DNA of 32,799 nt from a virus. The notes beneath the pieces were generated by a model. The model had not been told where the DNA came from. It saw only the letters and a program-made list of their open reading frames with translations, and ran no database searches. Location of the stretch: IMG/VR virus record IMGVR_UViG_3300031259_000036, positions 1 to 32,799 of that record. One strand, written 5' to 3'. A program made the translations under genes and the position numbers. Shown here piece after piece: positions 3,425-32,799 of this stretch; position 1 is the stretch's first letter, and each line of letters begins with the position of its first letter.

Positions 3425-4284
3425 TAATACACCCCGGGAGCAGAACTGAGCGCATTAGTTATGGAGCTGGTGACAAGCGTATTGGAGCTAGAGTAATTGC
3501 CTGCGCCTTGCACTTGACTCTGCTTTACAGGCACTACACCGCCATAGTTATTGATATTGAACTGCTGCGTGGTGGCGGCTGGCACAGGTATGGGAGTGAC
3601 TGAGCCTAGTGGCGTATTATCTGTGTCCTGCGTGCGGGCACTGACCACTGGCTGAGACTGCGAAATAGTAGCTGTGCGAATCTGACCAAACGACAGCCGC
3701 ATGCGCACACCACCATAAGAGCGATAGTCTTCCGGGGCCTGCACATTGGTCACCATCATGTTGTAGTAAGTGCGTAGCCGAGTAGAAATTATTAGTGGCA
3801 CGCGAGCCGCCTGCAAAGCTATCATCTGCTGATAGGCAGAAACGCTCTTGCTTGGGCTGCCAGTCCATGGCGTGGCTTTGGTTGCGGTAGAAGCGCCGAC
3901 AGTGGTGGTGTTCGTAGATGTATTGGCATACTGGTCTACAGAATCACTCATCAGGATAGACATTGAAAGCGTGGCAGGCATCAGGTATGCATGACTGGAA
4001 ATGTCCGCACCAGTCTGCACTGGATGCTCTGTCATGCGTAGCTGCTGATCATGGTCTAGCTCCATCACAGCATCAAATACGTACACCACAGGAACTGAGG
4101 CCGTAGTATTAGAGGCGACATGAATGGTAGCTTCGTCGCCGGACACTACAGAACCCAGCGTGGCTGTGCTGTTCAAACTGGCAGGCGAATTGTTGGCTGC
4201 AGGAACATAGTTGGCAGGCACCGTGATGGTGATAGGCGTAGTGTTCAGACCCCACTGCGGAGGTCTGTATATGGCAGTGCCCAT
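3424..4284 (-). CDS. Dit-like baseplate/tail protein
   Basis: A 286-residue protein whose start overlaps the tape measure stop as TAATG. Around residues 70-115 it has a segment running VFDAVMELDHD, RMTEHPVQTGADISSHAYLMP and LSMSILMSD, the pattern of Dit-like N-terminal domains in contractile-tail phages. The C-terminal hundred residues are Gln/Ser/Thr-rich low complexity. Such proteins sit just below the tape measure and link the tube to the hub. Its position between tape measure and plug matches. Residues 120-150 are Thr/Ser-rich and may be a linker. Confidence 0.75.
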   Translation of the reverse strand: MGTAIYRPPQWGLNTTPITITVPANYVPAANNSPASLNSTATLGSVVSGDEATIHVASNTTASVPVVYVFDAVMELDHDQQLRMTEHPVQTGADISSHAYLMPATLSMSILMSDSVDQYANTSTNTTTVGASTATKATPWTGSPSKSVSAYQQMIALQAARVPLIISTRLRTYYNMMVTNVQAPEDYRSYGGVRMRLSFGQIRTATISQSQPVVSARTQDTDNTPLGSVTPIPVPAATTQQFNINNYGGVVPVKQSQVQGAGNYSSSNTLVTSSITNALSSAPGVY

Positions 4285-5831
4285 TATGCGCTCCAGCCTA
4301 GGTTCTGCGCCTGCGCTATGTTACGTTGAACTGCCTTGGCCTGTGCCTGGCGCACGGTGTCGACTACTACACGACCTACGTCCTCATTAACAGCGTTAGG
4401 CTTGGCTACGTGAATGGTGATGCTGCCTACAGTAACGTCACCTGTACCACCGGCACGTCCAAGTACACTGGAGATGTAGTTCTGAGTCTCTGCTGGAAGC
4501 GTGGCTTTGCCTGCCAGGAACTTGTCCATGCGACCCGGACCGGCATTGTATGCACCCACAGCGTCGGCCACATTGTTCCCGTAGTGGGCTAATAGCTGAT
4601 TGAAGTATCGTTCGCCACCTTGCATATTTTCGGTGGGATTGTAAGGATTTACGCCCAGCCCCGCAGCCGTGTTGGGCATCAACTGCATAAGACCGATAGC
4701 GCCCTTAGGTGACACTGCGCTCTGATTGCCACCGCTTTCCTGCATCATTATAGCGTGCAGCAGACTATCAAGGCTGCTAACTCCTGCCGCGCTACCAGCG
4801 GTCCCGTTGCCATGCCCTGCGCGCCAGAAGTCCCAGGCACCGCCCGTAACTGCGCCTGCACCTGCGCCTATAGCACTACCGGCAGCTCCACCGCTAACGA
4901 TGCCAGCTAGTATGCCGGCGGGTCCTAGTGGCAGTCCCGCGATTCCGCCTATGATGGAGCCTACTACACCACCCACGCCGCCGCCTGCCAGCAAGCCGGT
5001 AAACGTGCCGGTAAACTTCAGCATGTTTTCAACCAACACAGCGAACCAGTGGGCCACCGTTTGTACGGCTGTAGCAAACTTCTCCATGTTGAATGTGCTG
5101 CCCTCTATGGCCTTGTCACCTGAAAGCATGCCGACAACATTAGTGAACATGGTGCCAAAGTCCGCCAGCACTGCGCCCGCAGCTTTACCTACTTCAGTGA
5201 TGTCTTTCCAAATGGGAAGGAACCACTTAGCGATGCTGTGCGCAATGTCAGGCATCTTTTCAATGACCCACTTGTTGAACTCTTTCAGCTTGGTCAGCAG
5301 TGTGTCCGGTCCGAGACCGAGTCCTTTCATAAACTCCGTGACGACGTTCATCCCGAGGTACTCAAGTTCCACGTGCATACGCGTGAACTCGAACCTGACG
5401 TCGCGAATCTTGCGCATCTGCTCATCGTAGTCTTTGCCTGGAGCCATAGCCTTTTGATCAAGCAGAAGCTGATGTGCACGCCCCCGTAGTTCTGGGTCCC
5501 AGGCCATATCTTCCATACTGACGCCGAGAGCATCAGTAGCTACTTTGAGCCCCCGTGCAGCATCCTTCGACATATACATGTGGAGCGCAAATAATCGAAA
5601 TGACTGATCTGCCATTGCGGTCTTGTCAATAAGCCCGATAGCTGCGCCACCAATTGCCACGAACCCTGCGACTATTTCTGACTGAGCCTTGAGAAAAGAT
5701 CCAGCCATTCGCATGGACTGGGTCTCCGCAACAAAGGCTGCCTCACGCAGAGCATTATGGAATCGTGCCAGACCAGCCTGGTCTACCACTGTCCCAAGTT
5801 TTATTAAGTATTCATCAATCACGTTGGGCAT
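4284..5831 (-). CDS. short tape measure protein with C-terminal lytic transglycosylase domain
   Basis: 515 residues. The N-terminal half is helical and amphipathic; residues 278-332 form a Gly/Ala-rich hydrophobic stretch that could cross a membrane. Residues 355-455 form an SLT-type lysozyme-like domain: ESGG with catalytic Glu365, GLMQLMP at 381-387 and AYNAGPG at 427-433. It sets tail length and probably cuts peptidoglycan during DNA entry. The size predicts a short tail, as in small myoviruses. The start at 5831 has a GAGAGG ribosome site and overlaps the end of the frameshifted chaperone frame. It follows the chaperone genes, the standard order. Confidence 0.9.
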   Translation of the reverse strand: MPNVIDEYLIKLGTVVDQAGLARFHNALREAAFVAETQSMRMAGSFLKAQSEIVAGFVAIGGAAIGLIDKTAMADQSFRLFALHMYMSKDAARGLKVATDALGVSMEDMAWDPELRGRAHQLLLDQKAMAPGKDYDEQMRKIRDVRFEFTRMHVELEYLGMNVVTEFMKGLGLGPDTLLTKLKEFNKWVIEKMPDIAHSIAKWFLPIWKDITEVGKAAGAVLADFGTMFTNVVGMLSGDKAIEGSTFNMEKFATAVQTVAHWFAVLVENMLKFTGTFTGLLAGGGVGGVVGSIIGGIAGLPLGPAGILAGIVSGGAAGSAIGAGAGAVTGGAWDFWRAGHGNGTAGSAAGVSSLDSLLHAIMMQESGGNQSAVSPKGAIGLMQLMPNTAAGLGVNPYNPTENMQGGERYFNQLLAHYGNNVADAVGAYNAGPGRMDKFLAGKATLPAETQNYISSVLGRAGGTGDVTVGSITIHVAKPNAVNEDVGRVVVDTVRQAQAKAVQRNIAQAQNLGWSA

Positions 5832-6961: not shown

Positions 6962-8359
6962 TTAAAGCTGCACATAGACGCCGATAAGCAGACTGACAAC
7001 TGCTCCCGCCGTGGTAATGGCCGAAATAATCGGCATAGCCTGCCCGGCGGCACGTGCGCCAGAGGACTGCTGTGAGTACGGCTGCGACTGGTTCAAGTAA
7101 CCGAGCGGAATGGCTTGTCCCGAGGTAAGCGAGATACCTGGCACATTAACAGCGGGCCCAGCCCAGTTAGCACCCGACAAGAAACCGATGCCTGCAAAAG
7201 TAGCTCCAACGGCATTAGCCGCCTGGATAAACAAGTGCTGGCCACCGTTAGTCTGTGGCACGGCGGGCAAGCTAGCTAGTACATTCAGCTCTGCAATCTG
7301 CAACTGTGCGACATACATAGCCAAGTAAAGCCACAAGAATGATGGAACACCGCTGCTCATGAAGCCCGGCTCAAATAGTTGGTATGGGTTGTAGTTGCCG
7401 TAGAAGTTGAAGTTAGCTGCCTTAATATTGGTAGCCTGTGTCTCTGTTAGTGGCTCTGCAGCTATGCCAACTAAGTCTTTATGCGCTACAGTGAAGAAGC
7501 TACCAGGTAGGCCAGTATTAAGCCCCATCTCCATACCCATCAATGCCGCGGCGGCATAGACATTGTTAGGGTACAGACCACTTTGCGTGGTAGAGTAGAC
7601 CCCAAGCACACGGTACTGCAGTGTCCGCAACTGAAGCGCAATGTTGGCCGCCGTGCCGTTGGGAATGCCGACAGACGAGGACCATGCATAGTAGCGTGTA
7701 GTCTGCCAGTTAGGGTCGGCCCATGCAGCCAGCGCCAAGTTGTCGGCATCAGCCGGGTTGTTGACTGCGAGCCCATACCACAGTGAACTCGCAGCACGAC
7801 ATGCCTGTGAGGCCTGCAGCAAAGTCTCGCCTACAGCTGTAATGTCTACTGTGAGGCCTGTACCACTGCCGCCTGTGGTAGCCAGCGCCGTGACCACAGT
7901 GTACGCAGTACCCTGTGTGCCTGCCACAACGCCCAGTGTGAGCACTGCGCCCGTACCAACGTTGATGGTAAGCACCGTAAGGAAACCATTGGATGCACCG
8001 CCTTGCGTGACGCCTACTATATCACCAACCTTGTAATTAGTGCCTGCTGAGCCTGCGTGTGGAATGGCTGTGGCAATAGCTGTCAGGTCTTGACAACCGA
8101 TCCAGATGTAGCCAGGTGCTGGTGTCTGTGCGAGGTAGATGTTGGCGGCGATATACTCCGGCTGAACGGCCGTGAATCCGTCAGAAAGCATGGCCGCTGT
8201 AGTGGCGTACTTGCGCAACCGGGAATTAGCCCCGTAAGAAGGAATGACGGCGCTAGGGCCGACGAACAGTCCTTGGTTGAAAGAATTGGCCGTTGCGGCC
8301 GTCGGAGCTACTGTAACAGAAATGTTTACTATGTCCGACAAAGGAAGTGGAATACTCAT
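6962..8359 (-). CDS. tail sheath protein (DUF3383-like) with an inserted beta module
   Basis: 465 residues, start at 8359 with AGGAG seven bases upstream. The N-terminus (LPLSDIVNISVTVAP, NQGLFVGPS) and the C-terminal half with conserved aromatic segments fit the DUF3383 contractile sheath family. Residues about 100-177 look inserted: NYKVGDIV, then GGASNGFLTVL and TTGGSGTGLTVDI, a Gly/Thr-rich module I recognise as a recurrent insertion in phage virion proteins. It probably projects from the sheath surface. The protein contracts to drive the tube and spike into the cell. It is adjacent to the tube gene. Confidence 0.87.
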   Translation of the reverse strand: MSIPLPLSDIVNISVTVAPTAATANSFNQGLFVGPSAVIPSYGANSRLRKYATTAAMLSDGFTAVQPEYIAANIYLAQTPAPGYIWIGCQDLTAIATAIPHAGSAGTNYKVGDIVGVTQGGASNGFLTVLTINVGTGAVLTLGVVAGTQGTAYTVVTALATTGGSGTGLTVDITAVGETLLQASQACRAASSLWYGLAVNNPADADNLALAAWADPNWQTTRYYAWSSSVGIPNGTAANIALQLRTLQYRVLGVYSTTQSGLYPNNVYAAAALMGMEMGLNTGLPGSFFTVAHKDLVGIAAEPLTETQATNIKAANFNFYGNYNPYQLFEPGFMSSGVPSFLWLYLAMYVAQLQIAELNVLASLPAVPQTNGGQHLFIQAANAVGATFAGIGFLSGANWAGPAVNVPGISLTSGQAIPLGYLNQSQPYSQQSSGARAAGQAMPIISAITTAGAVVSLLIGVYVQL

Positions 8360-19836: not shown

Positions 19837-19997
19837 GCCGCAAACCTTATAGCGGGCATGGTCTCCGTTGTCGAAGTATCCTCGCTTGCCCTGATAAACA
19901 GTAGCATGACCTCACCGGTATCGCCCGTCAAATACACGCTCCAGGTAGCTTTGATCGCTGCAGCGTATTCACGCACTGCCTTCATATCAAGTTTCAT
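19833..19997 (-). CDS. small unknown protein between portal and peptidase
   Basis: 54 residues from the ATG at 19997, which overlaps the portal stop as ATGA; its own stop overlaps the peptidase start in the same way. A longer frame from 20042 would run into the portal gene and is unlikely. It has one predicted helix (KAVREYAAAIKATW) followed by beta-strand sequence (SVYLTGDTGEVMLLFIRA). The coupled overlaps on both sides argue that it is real. No family is recognised. Confidence 0.65.
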   Translation of the reverse strand: MKLDMKAVREYAAAIKATWSVYLTGDTGEVMLLFIRASEDTSTTETMPAIRFAA

Positions 19998-21979
19998 ACA
20001 GTCTCCGAGCAGGGCCTGCTCAAGTCCGCTGTGGCCGTCCATCTTTTGAACTCTTCCACGGTCATTGGAGTAATGGCCGAGAAGACGTCTTTTGCTTTGT
20101 GATGACCTGCTGTGTAAAGGTTGAGTGCCTCATTGCGAGTCTTCACGCCAAGTATCACTTTGTGCTCGTCAAATTTCCTGCGACTGCCAAGGACTGACTG
20201 GTCGACAACGTAAACATATTGACTGTCAGACTCAGGATCCACCACGTAGCAGTCCAGCGAGTCACCATCAGCACCAAGCACACCAGGAAAATATCCGTAG
20301 TCAGCAGGCATGGTGTTTGACCAGTCCTTGCCGCTACGTATCTCACCCTTATGTGTTTCGATGACGACATCCAGTCCCTGCACTTGGTACTTCTGCACAG
20401 CCGGGCCATCAGCGTCGTTGGCCTGAGCTTGCTTTGGTGAGGCCTGTGTCTCTTCTGGCTTGTCCGTGGGCTCTTTGGCAGCCTTACCTACTTTGTTCTC
20501 TTCTTTGATCTCTTTAGCAGGCGATGCAGATGGATTCAGTCCACCAAACAGCCCCTCACCAAGCTCTCCTTCACTGCTGACTTCATCCGACAGCTTCTCA
20601 ATAGCCTCATCAGTGATGTTGGTGAACAAGTCCGTCTTGACACTGCTCTGCTTCAACTCTTTACCGGCCGTACGAGGACTAATGATACCACCATTCATTG
20701 CTACCACAACTGTGTCCATTGTGGTCTTAGCCAGCTCGCTCTTGTCCTTCGGGTCCATCACGCGGATGGAGGGGAACGCTAAGTCTAGGTCGTCAGGAAC
20801 TTCACCCATCTCACTCATGCAGAGAACGGGGTAGAGCTTTTCAAGTTGTGGACGTAGGTCTTTGTCTTGGTCCGCACTTATCCGTTCCTCGTAGACGCGC
20901 TCATCTCCCTCATTGGTGCCATTACCTAGACCACCTAGAGTCTTGCCCCAAAGGCGGGAGACGGGGATCTGCGCAGCACCAGAGATGTCTAATTGAAACT
21001 GCTGATAGCACTCGGCCAACCCACTGAACGTGTAGGAGGTAGACTCGATGCCGCCGTCAGCCGGCAATGGAACCAAACTGTTGTTACCCATTAGGTGATT
21101 GAGTGTGCTCATGCGTTGTTCAAATGCTGCAGAAGCCTTTTGATTCGAGCCTAGACCGCTGAGCAACTGTGCCAAGTCGGGGAACTTCATACCGAGGATG
21201 TTCGCGCGAAACGACAATGAGAGAATGTTCCAGCTCATGTTGTCGCGCTTCTTAATCTCCTCGTACACTGGCTCTAGCGACGAGATACCCCACCAAGTCT
21301 GCGCTTCACGTTCTGGAGTAGGAACCTCAGGGCCCGTAAAACGCAGAATGCGGGTAGCATGGACCTTAAACGATTCACCGCCCAGCACATTAACACTATA
21401 ATGCTCTGGTAAACCAAAATCAAGAGGCCGATCGATATCAGTACAGACAGACCCATCGGGCTGAATTCCAGACCAGCGATCGAATGGTACAAGACCTTTG
21501 AAATCGTGGATGCCAATGCTGTCCAGATCAAGGGGCTGATCAAGCTCGTTCTCCTGGTTCTTCAGGGCAATCAAGCACCCGGCGCCGCCAAACAACCTTG
21601 CCCACTGCATTGCTGCAAGGATCTTAGCCTTTGAGTTCGTCTTGCGCAGCGTCTTGTCAATACGAGACATATCTTTAGGATCTATGTCACTGGTAAGGCG
21701 AGGCCACGCACGCACCATGTCCGCTGCCGGCATGTCGATAATGCGACGACTGATCCAATGGTTGCGATACATGACGATCAGCTTCCAATAGTCATAACTA
21801 AGCCGCACCATCTCGTAGTCAGCAGACTCAGCGAGTGAGGGCGTTCCAGCTCCCATACGGGCAGCAGGATTAGTGAAGTAGTCCATTGCATGGGCAGTGT
21901 CGAACGTTACACGCTGCTGTAATCCAAGAGCATTCTCAGTCAGATTGGCTTTAGTACGTTTGCGCTGTTGCCTATTCAT
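19994..21979 (-). CDS. portal protein (DUF1073-like) with C-terminal pyrophosphatase-like domain
   Basis: 661 residues from the ATG at 21979, with AGGAAGG six bases upstream; the frame reaches 22009 but that start has no support. Residues 30-440 follow the DUF1073 portal pattern (YRNHWISRRIIDMPAADMVR, ARLFGGAGCLIAL, LDISGAAQIPVSRLWG). Some databases label this family as Acb1-related, but no paired HxT motifs of an Acb1 enzyme are visible. After an acidic and Lys/Pro-rich linker, residues 531-650 resemble family I inorganic pyrophosphatase: YGYFPG at 561 and DGDSLDC at 571, close to the D-x-D-[PE]-x-D signature but with Ser in the fourth place. The portal ring is the DNA gate of the head. Confidence 0.88.
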   Translation of the reverse strand: MNRQQRKRTKANLTENALGLQQRVTFDTAHAMDYFTNPAARMGAGTPSLAESADYEMVRLSYDYWKLIVMYRNHWISRRIIDMPAADMVRAWPRLTSDIDPKDMSRIDKTLRKTNSKAKILAAMQWARLFGGAGCLIALKNQENELDQPLDLDSIGIHDFKGLVPFDRWSGIQPDGSVCTDIDRPLDFGLPEHYSVNVLGGESFKVHATRILRFTGPEVPTPEREAQTWWGISSLEPVYEEIKKRDNMSWNILSLSFRANILGMKFPDLAQLLSGLGSNQKASAAFEQRMSTLNHLMGNNSLVPLPADGGIESTSYTFSGLAECYQQFQLDISGAAQIPVSRLWGKTLGGLGNGTNEGDERVYEERISADQDKDLRPQLEKLYPVLCMSEMGEVPDDLDLAFPSIRVMDPKDKSELAKTTMDTVVVAMNGGIISPRTAGKELKQSSVKTDLFTNITDEAIEKLSDEVSSEGELGEGLFGGLNPSASPAKEIKEENKVGKAAKEPTDKPEETQASPKQAQANDADGPAVQKYQVQGLDVVIETHKGEIRSGKDWSNTMPADYGYFPGVLGADGDSLDCYVVDPESDSQYVYVVDQSVLGSRRKFDEHKVILGVKTRNEALNLYTAGHHKAKDVFSAITPMTVEEFKRWTATADLSRPCSETV

Positions 21980-22235
21980 CGCCAGCCTTCCTGATTTGAT
22001 CTTCTTCACTAAGCCATATTACTTTTTCTTCGCTATAGCACACAGGCTGAATCTTTGTTCCATCAGCACTCTTGATAAATGCCCATAAAAGACGTTTCTT
22101 TGCTTTAGGTGCTATAATCTCTGCAAGGATGTCGCCGTCAAGTTCATAACCATTGACATAGATCACGTCGCCCTTGCTTATATGAACTTGTTTAGGCGCA
22201 GAGCGGTCGAGGTGTAGACTTCTGCGCCTAAGCAT
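21972..22235 (-). CDS. small unknown protein preceding the portal
   Basis: 87 residues; the stop overlaps the portal start by eight bases. It begins with a basic segment (LRRRSLHLDRSAPKQ) followed by beta-strand pattern (ISKGDVIYVNGYELDGDILAEI) and a charged end that contains the portal ribosome site. The short beta-barrel look recalls CsrA-type or KOW-type small domains, but key residues do not match, so I leave it unnamed. Coupled position suggests a head-related role. Confidence 0.65.
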   Translation of the reverse strand: MLRRRSLHLDRSAPKQVHISKGDVIYVNGYELDGDILAEIIAPKAKKRLLWAFIKSADGTKIQPVCYSEEKVIWLSEEDQIRKAGDE

Positions 22236-26295: not shown

Positions 26296-27121
26296 CTACG
26301 GGCCCGCTTTTCAGTGCCGCGAACAAAGCTTCGAGTTGCTCATTATGTCCACCACTTGGTGGCTCAGCGTTCTTGCCGTGCTTTTTTGGAAGCATATGGG
26401 AAAGCGACCACTGATACGCATTAAAAATGAGTGTACTGCGTGCGACGTTGTCAATGATACGAGTCTCAGTTGACGCGCCATATTGGTCACTGTTTTTCGT
26501 CACCGTGAGCTCGGTGAGCAGCGGCTTTAATGCGGCCTGCTGAGCTCGTTCTTCGTATAAAGTGACGAGTACAGATTTGGCACGCATATAGCGCGCGGAG
26601 AATGGATGGTCTTTGTCGTGGATCCACGAAAGCAATTTCGACACATTAGGCATATTAGGCATCATGCCGATATCATCGAGTGAAACACCAGTAGAAACTA
26701 GCTCAAACAATGCCACATCTAGCTCATCTGTGTAAGCAATAGATGGACGACCAATTTTGCCTGGAATCTTTTCGAGCACTAAGTTTGGCTTAGGCGAACC
26801 AACTACACGCCGCTGTACTTTGGGCTTTGCTGCCCTGACCTTTGCAAGCTCTTCTGCCGCAGTTTTACGCCGCTCAAGAATACGCTGTTCACGCTCTGCT
26901 TTTTTAACAAGACGACGGCGCTCTACTTCAGCTTCGTAAAATGCAAGCTGCTTTGGACCGACATTAGGCTTCTTCTTAGCTACAGGCGCCGTCACCTTAG
27001 CAGGCTTCTTCTTAGCTACAGGCGCCGTCACCTTAGCAGGCTTCTTCTTAGCTACAGGCGCCGTCACCTTAGCAGGCTTAGTGGGCGGCGTGCCCTTACC
27101 TGTTTTCTTGGTGGGTGCCAT
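26282..27121 (-). CDS. terS: terminase small subunit with Lys-rich repeat N-terminus
   Basis: 279 residues from the ATG at 27121, with GGAG eight bases upstream; the frame extends to 27160 but crosses a hairpin. Residues about 12-50 are basic, with three exact copies of PAKVTAPVAKKK. A charged coiled-coil region follows. The DNA-binding core is near residues 125-200: GRPSIAYTDELDVALFELV, VSLDDIGMMPNMPNVSKLLS and an ARYMRAKSV helix, resembling Sf6-type small terminases. It recognises the packaging site and hands DNA to the large subunit, whose gene overlaps. The unusually long basic arm may add non-specific DNA binding. Confidence 0.82.
   Translation of the reverse strand: MAPTKKTGKGTPPTKPAKVTAPVAKKKPAKVTAPVAKKKPAKVTAPVAKKKPNVGPKQLAFYEAEVERRRLVKKAEREQRILERRKTAAEELAKVRAAKPKVQRRVVGSPKPNLVLEKIPGKIGRPSIAYTDELDVALFELVSTGVSLDDIGMMPNMPNVSKLLSWIHDKDHPFSARYMRAKSVLVTLYEERAQQAALKPLLTELTVTKNSDQYGASTETRIIDNVARSTLIFNAYQWSLSHMLPKKHGKNAEPPSGGHNEQLEALFAALKSGPVDASD
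26967..27074 (-). repeat. three exact 36-bp tandem repeats in terS
   Basis: Units at 26967-27002, 27003-27038 and 27039-27074 are identical base for base. Each encodes 12 residues, PAKVTAPVAKKK. The perfect identity indicates recent expansion by slippage or unequal recombination and predicts length variation between related phages. Confidence 0.95.
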
Positions 27122-28785: not shown

Positions 28786-29304
28786 ATGCGCGGTGCAATT
28801 ATGCTCAGCCTTGATGTGGACATTTTGGCACGTCTACATCAATGCACAACTCAAGCTACACAGTCCGATGAGCTAGCAATTATGCTCGGCCTTTACGACT
28901 CCACGGCGATAGAAGTCCCATTAATGGCTACCGTGAAGCCCATTATTGTACCAAAGTACGACGAGTATTTCTTCACGCCTGACAAATATAAAGAGCTTCA
29001 AAAGCTTGTTAAGTCAACTAAAACCGGCTATGATCTATTAAATTATGCTGCTTTACATGATCCAAATGGCAAAGCTTTTATTCTGAAAACACGCCATGAA
29101 GCAGGCAAAGTTCTTAAGCGCGCTGCACGACCGCCGAAGCCTTTAAAGGCTCCTAAGCCCGCTAAGCGCCCCGTGATTAATCTAAGTCGTGTTGCTGAAG
29201 CTTTGTTACTTAAAGGTCTGGAGAGTTTTGATGTCCCCTCTATCGCTGGTGGAAGTACGCGCCGCAATGCTGCAAAAGCTACAGACCAGCCTGCTAACGA
29301 GTAA
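28786..29304 (+). CDS. unknown protein preceding primase-helicase
   Basis: 172 residues with AGGAG six bases before the ATG at 28786. The first 90 residues are a folded alpha/beta part (LSLDVDILARLHQC, PKYDEYFFTPDKYKELQKLV); residues 110-130 are Lys/Pro/Ala-rich (RAARPPKPLKAPKPAKRP), a likely nucleic-acid-binding linker, then a short helix. It is the first early gene and overlaps the primase by 74 bases, so it is probably part of the replication module. No family is recognised. Confidence 0.7.
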   Translation: MRGAIMLSLDVDILARLHQCTTQATQSDELAIMLGLYDSTAIEVPLMATVKPIIVPKYDEYFFTPDKYKELQKLVKSTKTGYDLLNYAALHDPNGKAFILKTRHEAGKVLKRAARPPKPLKAPKPAKRPVINLSRVAEALLLKGLESFDVPSIAGGSTRRNAAKATDQPANE

Positions 29305-31333
29305 GCATGCACAACAACTGAAAATACAACCGATGACAGAGCGTGAAGCTGCGGAACTAGGAGTTAGTCCAAGCTGGGCCGGTTTCAAAATTCCGTATTT
29401 TACACCAGAAGGTGCTATTGATAAAGGTTTCTTCCGCTACCGTTTTTGGCCCGACAGTAAGCCAAGCTCAGGCTTTGCTGCCATAGCTGAGCCAACAAGG
29501 AAACTACGCTATGTACAGCCCAAGAACACAGAGCTGCATGTTTATATGCCGCCGGTGCTCAGCACATCGTGGCGTGACATTATGAATGACGCCGCTCAGC
29601 CGCTCTGTATAACAGAAGGTGAGCTCAAAGCTGCCTGCGCATGTGTAAGTGGCTTCACTATGTTAGGACTCGGTGGAGTATTCAGCTGGACAAGCAAGAA
29701 GCATCAACAGCCATTGATTCCCATCCTTGAGGAATTTGTTTGGGAAAGCCGCGACATTTACTTATGCTTTGACAGCGACCAGACAAGCAACCCATTGGTG
29801 CAGTTGGCTGCAAGCCGCTTAGCCTTAGTATTGACAGCACGCGGCGCAAAGGTTCACGACGTTATTATCCCAGATGGCGCTGGTGGTGCAAAGCAGGGCG
29901 TAGATGACTTCATGGTCGCGCGGGGCGCGGAGGCCTTCGAAAAACTGATCGAAGACGCGAAGCCCATCGGCGCTGGAGTCGAGCTTCATCGGCTTAATGA
30001 AGAAGTAGGCTTGTTGTGGAGCGGCGGTGCAGCGGGGCACGTCGTGCGCTTGTCTGACGGCTTCGTTATGAAGCCCCTAGCTTTTACGCAATCATTTTAT
30101 CGCGATCGTACGTATTCAGAATTTACGCTTAATGCGCAAGGTCAGCCGGGTACGCTTCGTGTTAAACGGGCGGCAGAAGAGTGGCTAGGTTGGCGCAGTC
30201 GTACACTCATGGGCGAGATCACTTATGAACCTGGTAAACCGCAAATTACGGCTGAAGGCAACTATAATATATGGCGGTCCAGTGGACTAGAGCCCATTAA
30301 AGGCGACATTAGCCCGTGGACTCATTTGATGGGACATATGTTTAAGGACCTACGACCAGAGCAGTTTAGATGGCTAGAACAGTGGCTTGCTTGGCCATTG
30401 CAGTATCTAGGCGCGAAGATGTATAGTTGCGTATTGCTTTGGAGTCATACAGGCGGTACAGGAAAGAATTTGCTAGCAGAAGTTATGTGCCTGTTGTATG
30501 GCCCATCTAATTCTGTCACTATTGGTAGTCGTGAGCTAACTGCTGCATTTAACGGTTGGGCAGAGGGTAAGCAGTTTGTTGTAGGCGACGAGATCACGCT
30601 TGACGACAAGCGGCAAACGAGCAATGCGCTTAAGTCTATGCTGACGAGCACAAAAATTCGTGTAAACCGCAAAGGCGTTGAGAGCTACGAGATCGACGAC
30701 CGCGCTAACTATGTGCTGACAAGCAATGATCCTTTGTCGGTTGTGCAAGAGCAAGGAGCAAGGCGCACATTTATTCATCAGGTAAACGAAGAGCCATACG
30801 GGGACGCAAGAGGCCGAGCGTTAAAGAAGTGGGCAAGTGAGGGCGGAGCTGCACATGTGCTCTACCATTTGGTTAAAGAAGTTGACCTATCCGATTTCTC
30901 TCCCACTGCCAAGCCGCCGGACACGGATAGCTTTATTGACGCTGTAGCTTATAGTCGTAGTGATATTGACACATGGGCCGTAGCTGTGCGGGCAGATCCC
31001 GATACTTACCTTACAAGTAATCGAGCCAAGTTCGACGGGGGCAAAGAACAAAAGGCATATGATGTGTATACGCCAGCAGAACTGCTGAAGCTGTACGACC
31101 CAGAGGACAAAAAGAAAGTCAGCTTACGCGCTTTAGGCATCGCGCTTGACCGAGCGGGCTTCAAGAAAGCGCTCTATAACAATGGCCGGCTCGGAAACAT
31201 TCGGTCCACATTTTGGTTAGTACGTAGTACAGTGAACGTAACAAGCACAGTCGCCGCTAAGATGTACCAGCAAGAACGTGGCGTAGGCGATAAAACAGCT
31301 AGTGTGAGCAAGTTTGGAAAGAGAGTGCAATAG
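29231..31333 (+). CDS. primase-helicase (Toprim plus SF3 helicase)
   Basis: 700 residues from the ATG at 29231, with GGAGAG about five bases upstream; later starts at 29267 and 29333 lack a good site. Residues 35-75 are the usual primase-like N-terminus (AAELGVSPSWAGFKIPYFTP). The DUF3854-type Toprim domain has ITEGELKAA near 127-135 and FDSD at 180-183. The SF3 helicase domain has Walker A HTGGTGKN at 406-413, Walker B VVGDEI at 450-455, sensor LTSND near 496 and Arg pair near 511. It makes primers and unwinds the phage origin. The last 16 residues lie in a DNA segment repeated 220 bases downstream, so the present C-terminus may be secondary. Confidence 0.92.
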   Translation: MSPLSLVEVRAAMLQKLQTSLLTSKHAQQLKIQPMTEREAAELGVSPSWAGFKIPYFTPEGAIDKGFFRYRFWPDSKPSSGFAAIAEPTRKLRYVQPKNTELHVYMPPVLSTSWRDIMNDAAQPLCITEGELKAACACVSGFTMLGLGGVFSWTSKKHQQPLIPILEEFVWESRDIYLCFDSDQTSNPLVQLAASRLALVLTARGAKVHDVIIPDGAGGAKQGVDDFMVARGAEAFEKLIEDAKPIGAGVELHRLNEEVGLLWSGGAAGHVVRLSDGFVMKPLAFTQSFYRDRTYSEFTLNAQGQPGTLRVKRAAEEWLGWRSRTLMGEITYEPGKPQITAEGNYNIWRSSGLEPIKGDISPWTHLMGHMFKDLRPEQFRWLEQWLAWPLQYLGAKMYSCVLLWSHTGGTGKNLLAEVMCLLYGPSNSVTIGSRELTAAFNGWAEGKQFVVGDEITLDDKRQTSNALKSMLTSTKIRVNRKGVESYEIDDRANYVLTSNDPLSVVQEQGARRTFIHQVNEEPYGDARGRALKKWASEGGAAHVLYHLVKEVDLSDFSPTAKPPDTDSFIDAVAYSRSDIDTWAVAVRADPDTYLTSNRAKFDGGKEQKAYDVYTPAELLKLYDPEDKKKVSLRALGIALDRAGFKKALYNNGRLGNIRSTFWLVRSTVNVTSTVAAKMYQQERGVGDKTASVSKFGKRVQ
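31280..31323 (+). repeat. 44-bp direct repeat, copy 1 (end of primase gene)
   Basis: This matches 31500-31543 with one mismatch (T at 31291 against C at 31511). It encodes GVGDKTASVSKFGKR in the primase frame. The pair is spaced exactly 220 bases. Confidence 0.97.
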
Positions 31334-31522
31334 TGAAGCGAATACTGCCAAAGATTGTCCAAATTTGTGCATTAGGCGAAGATCTGCAATCTTTACATAT
31401 TTGTGTCTGGTAAAGGCGTTACGCATTCACACTGGGTACTTTCTGTGCGTAATATAGCAGAACGTCCCGGTTTAGCTCTGGAAGATGTTGAGCGGCCAAG
31501 GCGTAGGCGACAAAACAGCTAG
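31333..31522 (+). pseudogene. small interrupted frame between the direct repeats
   Basis: A GTG at 31333, overlapping the primase stop, opens VKRILPKIVQICALGEDLQSLH and stops at 31413. The adjacent frame continues in protein-like fashion, FVSGKGVTHSHWVLSVRNIA then ERPGLALEDVERP, to a TAG at 31522 inside the second repeat. Joining them needs one frameshift near 31399. This looks like one small decayed gene, or two small overlapping frames. No family is recognised. It occupies the whole segment between the repeats. Confidence 0.35.
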
Positions 31523-31712
31523 TGTGAGCAAGTTTGGAAAGAGGGACTTAGCTGTTATAGTCGCTCAGCCGGCTAGCACGCTTATAGAGCGGTTACTAGA
31601 AGAATGGGGCGACCCAGCTGCCGGATCTAAAGCGTTGGGTTTGACATGCGCTTTAGTCGAGACTAGGCACGTAGAGCTAAGACGGCAACAGCTGGAGAAG
31701 TGGAATGGATGA
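31485..31712 (+). CDS. 75-residue frame, possible detached C-terminus of the primase
   Basis: It begins MLSGQGVGDKTASVSKFGKR, whose last 15 residues repeat the primase end, and goes on with DLAVIVAQPASTLIERLLEE and WGDPAAGSKALGLTCALVE, ending in a charged helix. The ATG has no properly spaced ribosome site. Deleting one 220-base unit would fuse it in frame to the primase. It therefore may be a separated primase tail rather than an independent gene. Its end overlaps the sigma factor start by eight bases. Confidence 0.5.
   Translation: MLSGQGVGDKTASVSKFGKRDLAVIVAQPASTLIERLLEEWGDPAAGSKALGLTCALVETRHVELRRQQLEKWNG
31500..31543 (+). repeat. 44-bp direct repeat, copy 2
   Basis: Second copy of the sequence at 31280-31323, in the same translation frame (GVGDKTASVSKFGKR) but followed by a different continuation, DLAVIV instead of VQ and a stop. 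Confidence 0.97.
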
Positions 31713-32286
31713 TGCAGAGATACCAGGCCAGATGCCTCGTGTATGGACCATTGCGTGGAATATGAAAGCAAAACTTCCGCCTGAAATAGAGCTTGACGAT
31801 TTGATAGGCGCCGGAACACTCGGCTTAGTAGACGCAGCTGCGAAGTACAATCCTGCGCTAGGCACGCCATTCGGCCTATATGCGGCCCATAGAATCACAG
31901 GCGCTACAGTAGACTCCTTGCGTGAGCTAGACTGGGGCAGCAGAGCAATACGTCGCAAAGCGCGTGAGGTAGCCGAGGCAACTAGCTCTCTAGCGCGGCG
32001 CTTGGACCATGAGCCTGACAAAGCGGAGATTGCGCAGGCACTAAGCATGCCACTAGCGCATTACCAAGCACTGCGCGCTAGGCTAGACGCACTTGTTACT
32101 AAAGTTCTTGATGCAAGATGGGAAGATGGCTCCGAGACAATTGGATGGGTGGTCGACCCACGACCTGGGCCGCTAGACTGCGCTATAATAGCCGAGACAG
32201 CAGCGTGGTTCAGTAGACTGCTATCGCGGTTAACGCCGTGGCAGCGTGAGGTGCTAATCGGTATTTACTGGTTGGGCATGAGGTGA
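31705..32286 (+). CDS. FliA-like sigma factor, regions 2-3 (region 4 out of frame)
   Basis: 193 residues. Region 2 is clear: ELDDLIGAGTLGLVDAAAKY, TPFGLYAAHRITGATVDSLR and ELDWGSRAIRRKAREV, matching FliA/WhiG-type sigma-70 factors, which lack region 1. Region 3 follows (LARRLDHEPDKAEIAQALSM). Region 4 begins with LTPWQREVLIGIYWLG but a TGA at 32284 cuts it off; the helix-turn-helix continues in the -1 frame to 32402. If active it would direct host RNA polymerase to phage promoters, possibly late ones. The window shows either a mutation, a sequencing error, a recoding site or a split factor. Its start overlaps the preceding frame by eight bases. Confidence 0.82.
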   Translation: MDDAEIPGQMPRVWTIAWNMKAKLPPEIELDDLIGAGTLGLVDAAAKYNPALGTPFGLYAAHRITGATVDSLRELDWGSRAIRRKAREVAEATSSLARRLDHEPDKAEIAQALSMPLAHYQALRARLDALVTKVLDARWEDGSETIGWVVDPRPGPLDCAIIAETAAWFSRLLSRLTPWQREVLIGIYWLGMR

Positions 32287-32402
32287 TGCAGGCTACAAAG
32301 CTTAGTAAAGCACGTGTGAGCCAGGTGCACAAAAGAGCTTTAGCTAGGGTAGAAAGGACGCTGAAAATAAATTTCCGTCTGGATACATCTGCAGCGCTAT
32401 AA
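32286..32402 (+). CDS. detached sigma region 4.2 helix-turn-helix (38 residues)
   Basis: An ATG at 32286 shares its A with the TGA of the sigma frame (TGATG) and opens MQATKLSKARVSQVHKRALA, then RVERTLKINF, to a TAA at 32400. The KxSKARVSQVHKRAL part is the recognition helix of sigma region 4.2, which binds the -35 element. It is open in this frame from 32250, so the join could lie anywhere in 32250-32286. Coupled reinitiation could make it as a separate peptide. Compared with FliA the linker to region 4.1 seems about four residues short, which fits a small out-of-frame deletion. Confidence 0.65.
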   Translation: MQATKLSKARVSQVHKRALARVERTLKINFRLDTSAAL

Positions 32403-32422: not shown

Positions 32423-32799
32423 ATGAAACTGACTACAACATTGAGTCTTCTTCACAAAGCCAATGCTTGCCAACCGCGCTACAAAGTTTTGCTTGCAGCG
32501 CTCGGAACTGACTATCCAAAAGACAAACCAATCAATTTGCTTACAATTCTCGAGCATAATGGGCTAGATGATGCGCTCTGGGCGCTGCGAGCTACGGCCG
32601 AGAATTGCAATAAAATAGCGTACTTAATGGCAGCAGATTTCGCAGAGCAAGTGCTTTTTGTTTGGCAGAACTATGCTCCAGAAGACAAGCGCCCAGAACT
32701 TGCAATCAAAGCTGTAAGAGACTTTGCTAATGGGCACATAACAAAAGGAGAACTACAAGTTGCCCAGGCCGCCGCTCGGGCCGCCGCCGCCGCTTGGGC
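32423..32799 (+). CDS. Imm-5-like helical protein (partial, runs off right edge)
   Basis: ATG at 32423 with GAGGTG five bases upstream; open to the edge, at least 125 residues. Start MKLTTTLSLLHKANACQPRY, then LLTILEHNGLDDALWALRAT, PEDKRPELAIKAVRDFANG and a closing Ala-rich stretch. The DALWALRA, then DKRP-x-x-AI-x-x-x-R, then Ala-rich order is what I recall from proteins annotated as putative immunity protein (Imm-5-like) in phages and bacteria. No toxin partner is visible. It may protect against a bacterial or phage factor or simply be a helical phage protein. The Ala run continues beyond the window. Confidence 0.55.
   Translation, partial: MKLTTTLSLLHKANACQPRYKVLLAALGTDYPKDKPINLLTILEHNGLDDALWALRATAENCNKIAYLMAADFAEQVLFVWQNYAPEDKRPELAIKAVRDFANGHITKGELQVAQAAARAAAAAW

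Follow-up and report, generated by a model that had tools for sequence, protein, structure and literature searches.

The window examined here is a linear virus record from IMG/VR, 32,799 bases long. Near its right end, it carries a phage gene of the FliA/sigma-28 type whose region 4 lies out of frame. We put the probability at roughly 0.88 that this arrangement results from one small deletion, whether real or introduced as an error in the contig. Its length would be 3n+1 bases, with 10 as the simplest case, and it would lie at the turn that separates region 4.1 from the helix-turn-helix of region 4.2. Read as it stands, the sequence would be translated up to 32286 and yield a protein of 193 amino acids that comprises regions 2 and 3 and lacks the helix recognizing the -35 element. 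The deletion is more likely a genuine mutation of the phage than an error in the metagenomic contig, whose end is near. We find no support for a sigma factor that is recoded or made of two pieces; the locus has the look of a gene broken in an ordinary way, or of a sequence error.

The sigma gene and its two reading frames

The 5' part of the FliA/sigma-28-like gene occupies positions 31705..32286 on the plus strand and ends in a TGA codon at 32284-32286. The encoded 193 amino acids cover regions 2, 3, and the start of region 4. Region 2 matches Pfam Sigma70_r2 (PF04542; E 8e-9) with 35.6 bits, above the cut-off of 24, and region 3 matches Sigma70_r3 (PF04539; E 1e-5) with 25.9 bits, above the cut-off of 25.3. 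Of the Pfam family Sigma70_r4_2, this ORF contains the first half only. The rest of region 4.2, including the recognition helix, follows in the -1 frame of the same strand. That frame is open throughout 32250..32402, and translates as GANRYLLVGHEVMQATKLSKARVSQVHKRALARVERTLKINFRLDTSAAL, with the tail reading ...GHEVMQATKLSKARVSQVHKRALARVERTL. The two frames overlap for 37 bases (32250..32286, plus strand), and the frame change, which is -1, must fall inside this overlap. By alignment, the break falls at about 32273-32279, at the turn that precedes the helix-turn-helix. Within the -1 frame, an ORF of 38 codons (MQATKLSKARVSQ...; 32286..32402, plus strand) starts at an ATG that overlaps the stop codon of the 193-aa ORF (TGATG). 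It lacks the first half of the helix-turn-helix and is probably not a separate gene.

Several measurements bear on the nature of the tail. A region-4 HMM built from relatives only scored it at 19.0 bits; the best dinucleotide shuffle of the same DNA reached 10.4 bits, and none of 5000 scored as high as the tail. A codon-usage score trained on the larger ORFs of the window favored the 0 frame up to the junction, across regions 2-3, and from there on the -1 frame. Joining the frames also raised the score against the FliA_WhiG family (TIGR02479) from 114.6 bits for the 193-aa ORF to 133.7 bits. Judged by these scores, the out-of-frame tail is a genuine region 4.2. A tail that retains a coding signal in the -1 frame and has acquired no stop is what would be expected soon after a break, and the deletion is probably recent. 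A full sigma factor would no longer be made from the gene. A preliminary description of this DNA had placed regions 2, 3, and the start of region 4 in one frame, and region 4.2 in the -1 frame behind an ATG overlapping the stop. Both statements agree with the ORF found at 31705-32286, the open -1 frame, and the HMM score.

TIGR02479 is the best family by far, with E-values of 5.6e-33 for the 193-aa ORF and 7.9e-39 for the joined frames. Both bit scores stay below its curated cut-off of 189.6 bits, and the gene is therefore described as FliA-like only. The best PDB match of the joined frames is FliA (6pmi, 4.6e-26), and among cellular proteins, FliA of Betaproteobacteria and Gammaproteobacteria comes closest, with at most 49% identity over about 110 residues. 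On these comparisons, the sigma protein of the window is FliA/sigma-28-like. The tree gave it no definite place. A search of the phage's own genome for FliA-type promoters gave one match to TAAA-N13-GCCGATAA, at 6980 on the plus strand, with no enrichment over shuffles.

Length at the junction and a possible programmed frameshift

The joined frames align to FliA-like sigma factors as one segment, with a gap of three residues exactly at the junction. The same gap appears against FliA in 6pmi. The stretch bounded by the tyrosine of region 4.1 and the R of RVSQ is 17 residues long in the joined window sequence, against 20 in 114 of 121 relatives and 21 in four more. Of the relatives, 80 come from bacterial genomes and the others from records of viruses or phages; many are near copies of one another. 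The three remaining relatives (L127, L130, and L133) have no recognizable region 4.2. Three lost residues and a shift of -1 amount to 10 bases, so a single deletion accounts for both, and we infer that one event caused the frame change together with the residue loss. An ancestor with 21 residues would put the deletion at 13 bases and leave the logic unchanged. The gene may also have taken another course, with two events, the loss of a single base and a separate loss of nine. An out-of-frame deletion was among the four options raised by the preliminary description, and the gap at the junction favors it.

Programmed -1 ribosomal frameshifting, another of those options, would join the halves into a 232-aa sigma factor. 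The direction of the frame change and the 37-base overlap suit it, and the sequence GTTGGGC at 32271 offers three of the four identities of a tandem -1 slip. However, the stretch 32235-32286 contains no in-frame X XXY YYZ heptamer, which bears out the earlier remark that a classic slippery heptamer is missing, and the overlap 32250-32286 contains no long run of A or T. A ribosomal shift would moreover leave region 4 short, and so it explains the frame change only and not the lost residues, which are missing at a position of nearly fixed length. The relatives, including an unbroken homologue in locus L010, need no shift, and none was found split. We regard programmed frameshifting as extremely unlikely. 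As a candidate programmed -1 frameshift gene, the locus was rejected, the split not being conserved in relatives and the product not being of normal length.

Relatives and gene order

In the window, the structural genes are encoded by the minus strand. Toward the right end, the plus strand carries, in order, a small ORF, a primase/helicase gene, the sigma gene, and an Imm5-like ORF. The primase/helicase gene (DUF3854 + DUF5906; 29231..31333, plus strand) served as the syntenic anchor for finding relatives; its ORF is open from a GTG at 29189, and the homologous start lies near the ATG at 29231. Its 3' end is duplicated into the 371-base stretch that precedes the sigma gene and holds no recognizable gene. 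The duplication takes the form of a 44-base direct repeat (31280-31323 and 31500-31543), 98% identical and 220 bases apart. Beyond the sigma gene, the Imm5-like ORF (32423-32799) is truncated where the contig ends, within a run rich in GCC. Imm5-like homologues also occur downstream of related primases in loci L012, L142, L152, L155, and L162.

Most primase relatives have no sigma gene nearby, and the relatives at 56-58% (L002, L003, and L008) have none. Among 86 primase-bearing loci examined, a sigma gene stands directly behind the primase in L010 only; in L203, a weak and unrelated sigma gene lies about 2 kb further on. The L010 gene (L010:7151-7753, IMGVR_UViG_3300012942_000057) directly follows a related primase and stays in one open frame through a full, normal-length region 4.2. 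It resembles the window's gene in this position, in its FliA-like character, and in a start of the form V/MDDAEI..MP (VDDAEIVALMPLV against MDDAEIPGQMPRV in the window). It differs in its continuous frame, its complete region 4.2, and a much reduced region 3. The L010 protein is very divergent, with only 38% identity to that of the window over 85 residues, and the tree does not show the two to be sisters. For these reasons, the L010 gene supports an unbroken ancestral state and does not prove it.

A protein scan of IMG/VR with the sigma sequence found no close relative. No DNA relatives were recovered by megablast and distant blastn of phages or by distant blastn of plasmids, a gapped DNA pattern across the junction had no match in IMG/VR, and the bacterial genomes scanned with the primase alignment held no prophage relative. 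The ancestral state is consequently read from distantly related proteins, which reach no more than 49% identity, over part of the length. In the comparison with homologues that the preliminary description had named as a check, the relatives read in one frame, and no close relative turned up.

A possible assembly or sequencing error

The phage itself may also lack the break, which would then reflect a mistake of assembly or of sequencing close to where the metagenomic contig ends; a sequencing error was among the options of the preliminary description. Some 515 bases separate the junction from the end of the linear record, which breaks off in a GCC-rich run, and the 44-base repeat at 31280 and 31500 indicates a neighborhood with repeats able to mislead an assembler. 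Yet the loss of about 10 bases without a homopolymer is untypical of short-read error, and an unsystematic look at the larger ORFs revealed no other broken genes. We consider such an error unlikely, while giving it real weight.

A possible two-peptide or truncated sigma factor

TGATG overlaps are common in phage operons, and two-part sigma factors exist (T4 gp55/gp33 and SigO/RsoA). Both facts lend some appeal to a sigma factor of two peptides, in which a 38-aa region 4.2 peptide produced by coupling at the TGATG works together with the 193-aa protein. However, the 38-aa piece begins inside the helix-turn-helix, with the first half missing, and its match to Pfam Sigma70_r4 covers only positions 31-48 of 50 and stays under the cut-off, at 14 bits. 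A Shine-Dalgarno-like GAGGTG stands immediately before the ATG at 32286, with no spacing, leaving no usable ribosome-binding site there, whereas this motif is properly spaced before the next gene (32423). The likeness of GAGGTGATG to a ribosome-binding site plus start codon follows from the codons for the conserved E-[IV]-x in the helix-turn-helix: GAG GTG ATG represents these codons in the -1 frame, and a regulatory explanation is thus unneeded. No relatives split in the same manner were found, and the joined product is short. These points count against the two-peptide option of the preliminary description, and we find it barely conceivable. More broadly, expression of both frames, through recoding or coupled re-initiation, to give a working sigma factor with a short or separate region 4.2 is very improbable.

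Selection may instead have acted on the 193-aa protein itself, which would then be a sigma factor limited to regions 2 and 3, in the manner of T4 gp55, and the tail would be debris. In codon usage, regions 2 and 3 still look coding. Within a phage FliA-like clade, moreover, L127, L130, and L133 have no recognizable region 4.2, whereas L124 and L128 keep it; loss of this region thus happens in nature. Against this stand the tail, which is intact and recognizable and leaves little time for a new role of the 193-aa protein to have been fixed, and the long branch of the sigma gene in the tree. The truncated protein may have some role, and its selection as such seems improbable to us; a deletion in a gene of the ordinary kind is the reading that we prefer.

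The sigma genes of that clade deserve description in their own right. Those at L127:3860-4486, L133:3866-4516, and L130:3923-4486 have region 2 intact and no recognizable region 4.2, and they share a tree group with those of L124 and L128. In the phage contig L130, two sigma-like genes stand in tandem, the gene at 3923-4486 being followed by an ORF at 4398-5159 with regions 2 and 4. This pair comes nearer to a possible division of labor than the gene of the window.

Other features of the window

Two further features were recorded outside the sigma locus. An exact 42-base direct repeat (26966-27007 and 27038-27079, 72 bases apart) lies inside a putative terminase small subunit ORF. On the minus strand, a single ORF at 19994-22009 combines a portal protein (Phage_portal_3, 1.4e-89) with a C-terminal domain resembling inorganic pyrophosphatase (InPase PF18823, 5e-32).

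Significance and comparison with known divided sigma factors

As given, the locus has little significance: a single metagenomic record contains a phage sigma gene with a frameshift. It does offer a caution, since a TGATG overlap behind GAGGTG resembled an evolved coupling site yet is explained by conserved helix-turn-helix codons. Should use of the truncated protein or of the split be demonstrated, the gene would join the few divided sigma factors of phages as a FliA-like case. Even then, the split would have precedents, as divided sigma factors are known in phages and bacteria.

Compared with the FliA/WhiG (sigma-28) family, the window's protein has a shorter N-terminus and a score below the curated cut-off. 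Members of this family carry a region 4 of normal length in the same polypeptide; in the window, region 4 is out of frame and three residues short once joined, the measured stretch having 17 residues against 20-21.

The preliminary description took a working two-piece sigma factor to be new for phages, which is wrong. Late transcription in T4 uses gp55 and gp33, described as a split sigma subunit, in which the sigma2-like gp55 works with gp33 (PMC7408454). The likeness to the window would lie in a phage sigma function spread over two proteins, one of them sigma2-like (PMC7408454). The T4 proteins differ in being encoded by separate, full genes, in the mimicry of sigma4 by gp33 on the beta flap, and in serving promoters without a -35 element, whereas the second piece in the window is half of a helix-turn-helix. 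SigO-RsoA of B. subtilis is a divided sigma factor of bacteria, with sigma2 and sigma4 on different polypeptides (PMC8103513). The locus was also considered as a two-subunit sigma factor of the SigO-RsoA or gp55-gp33 kind, a candidate rejected for the incomplete domain of its second ORF and the Shine-Dalgarno-like motif abutting the ATG. Each subunit of SigO-RsoA carries a whole domain, and the second ORF of the window does not.
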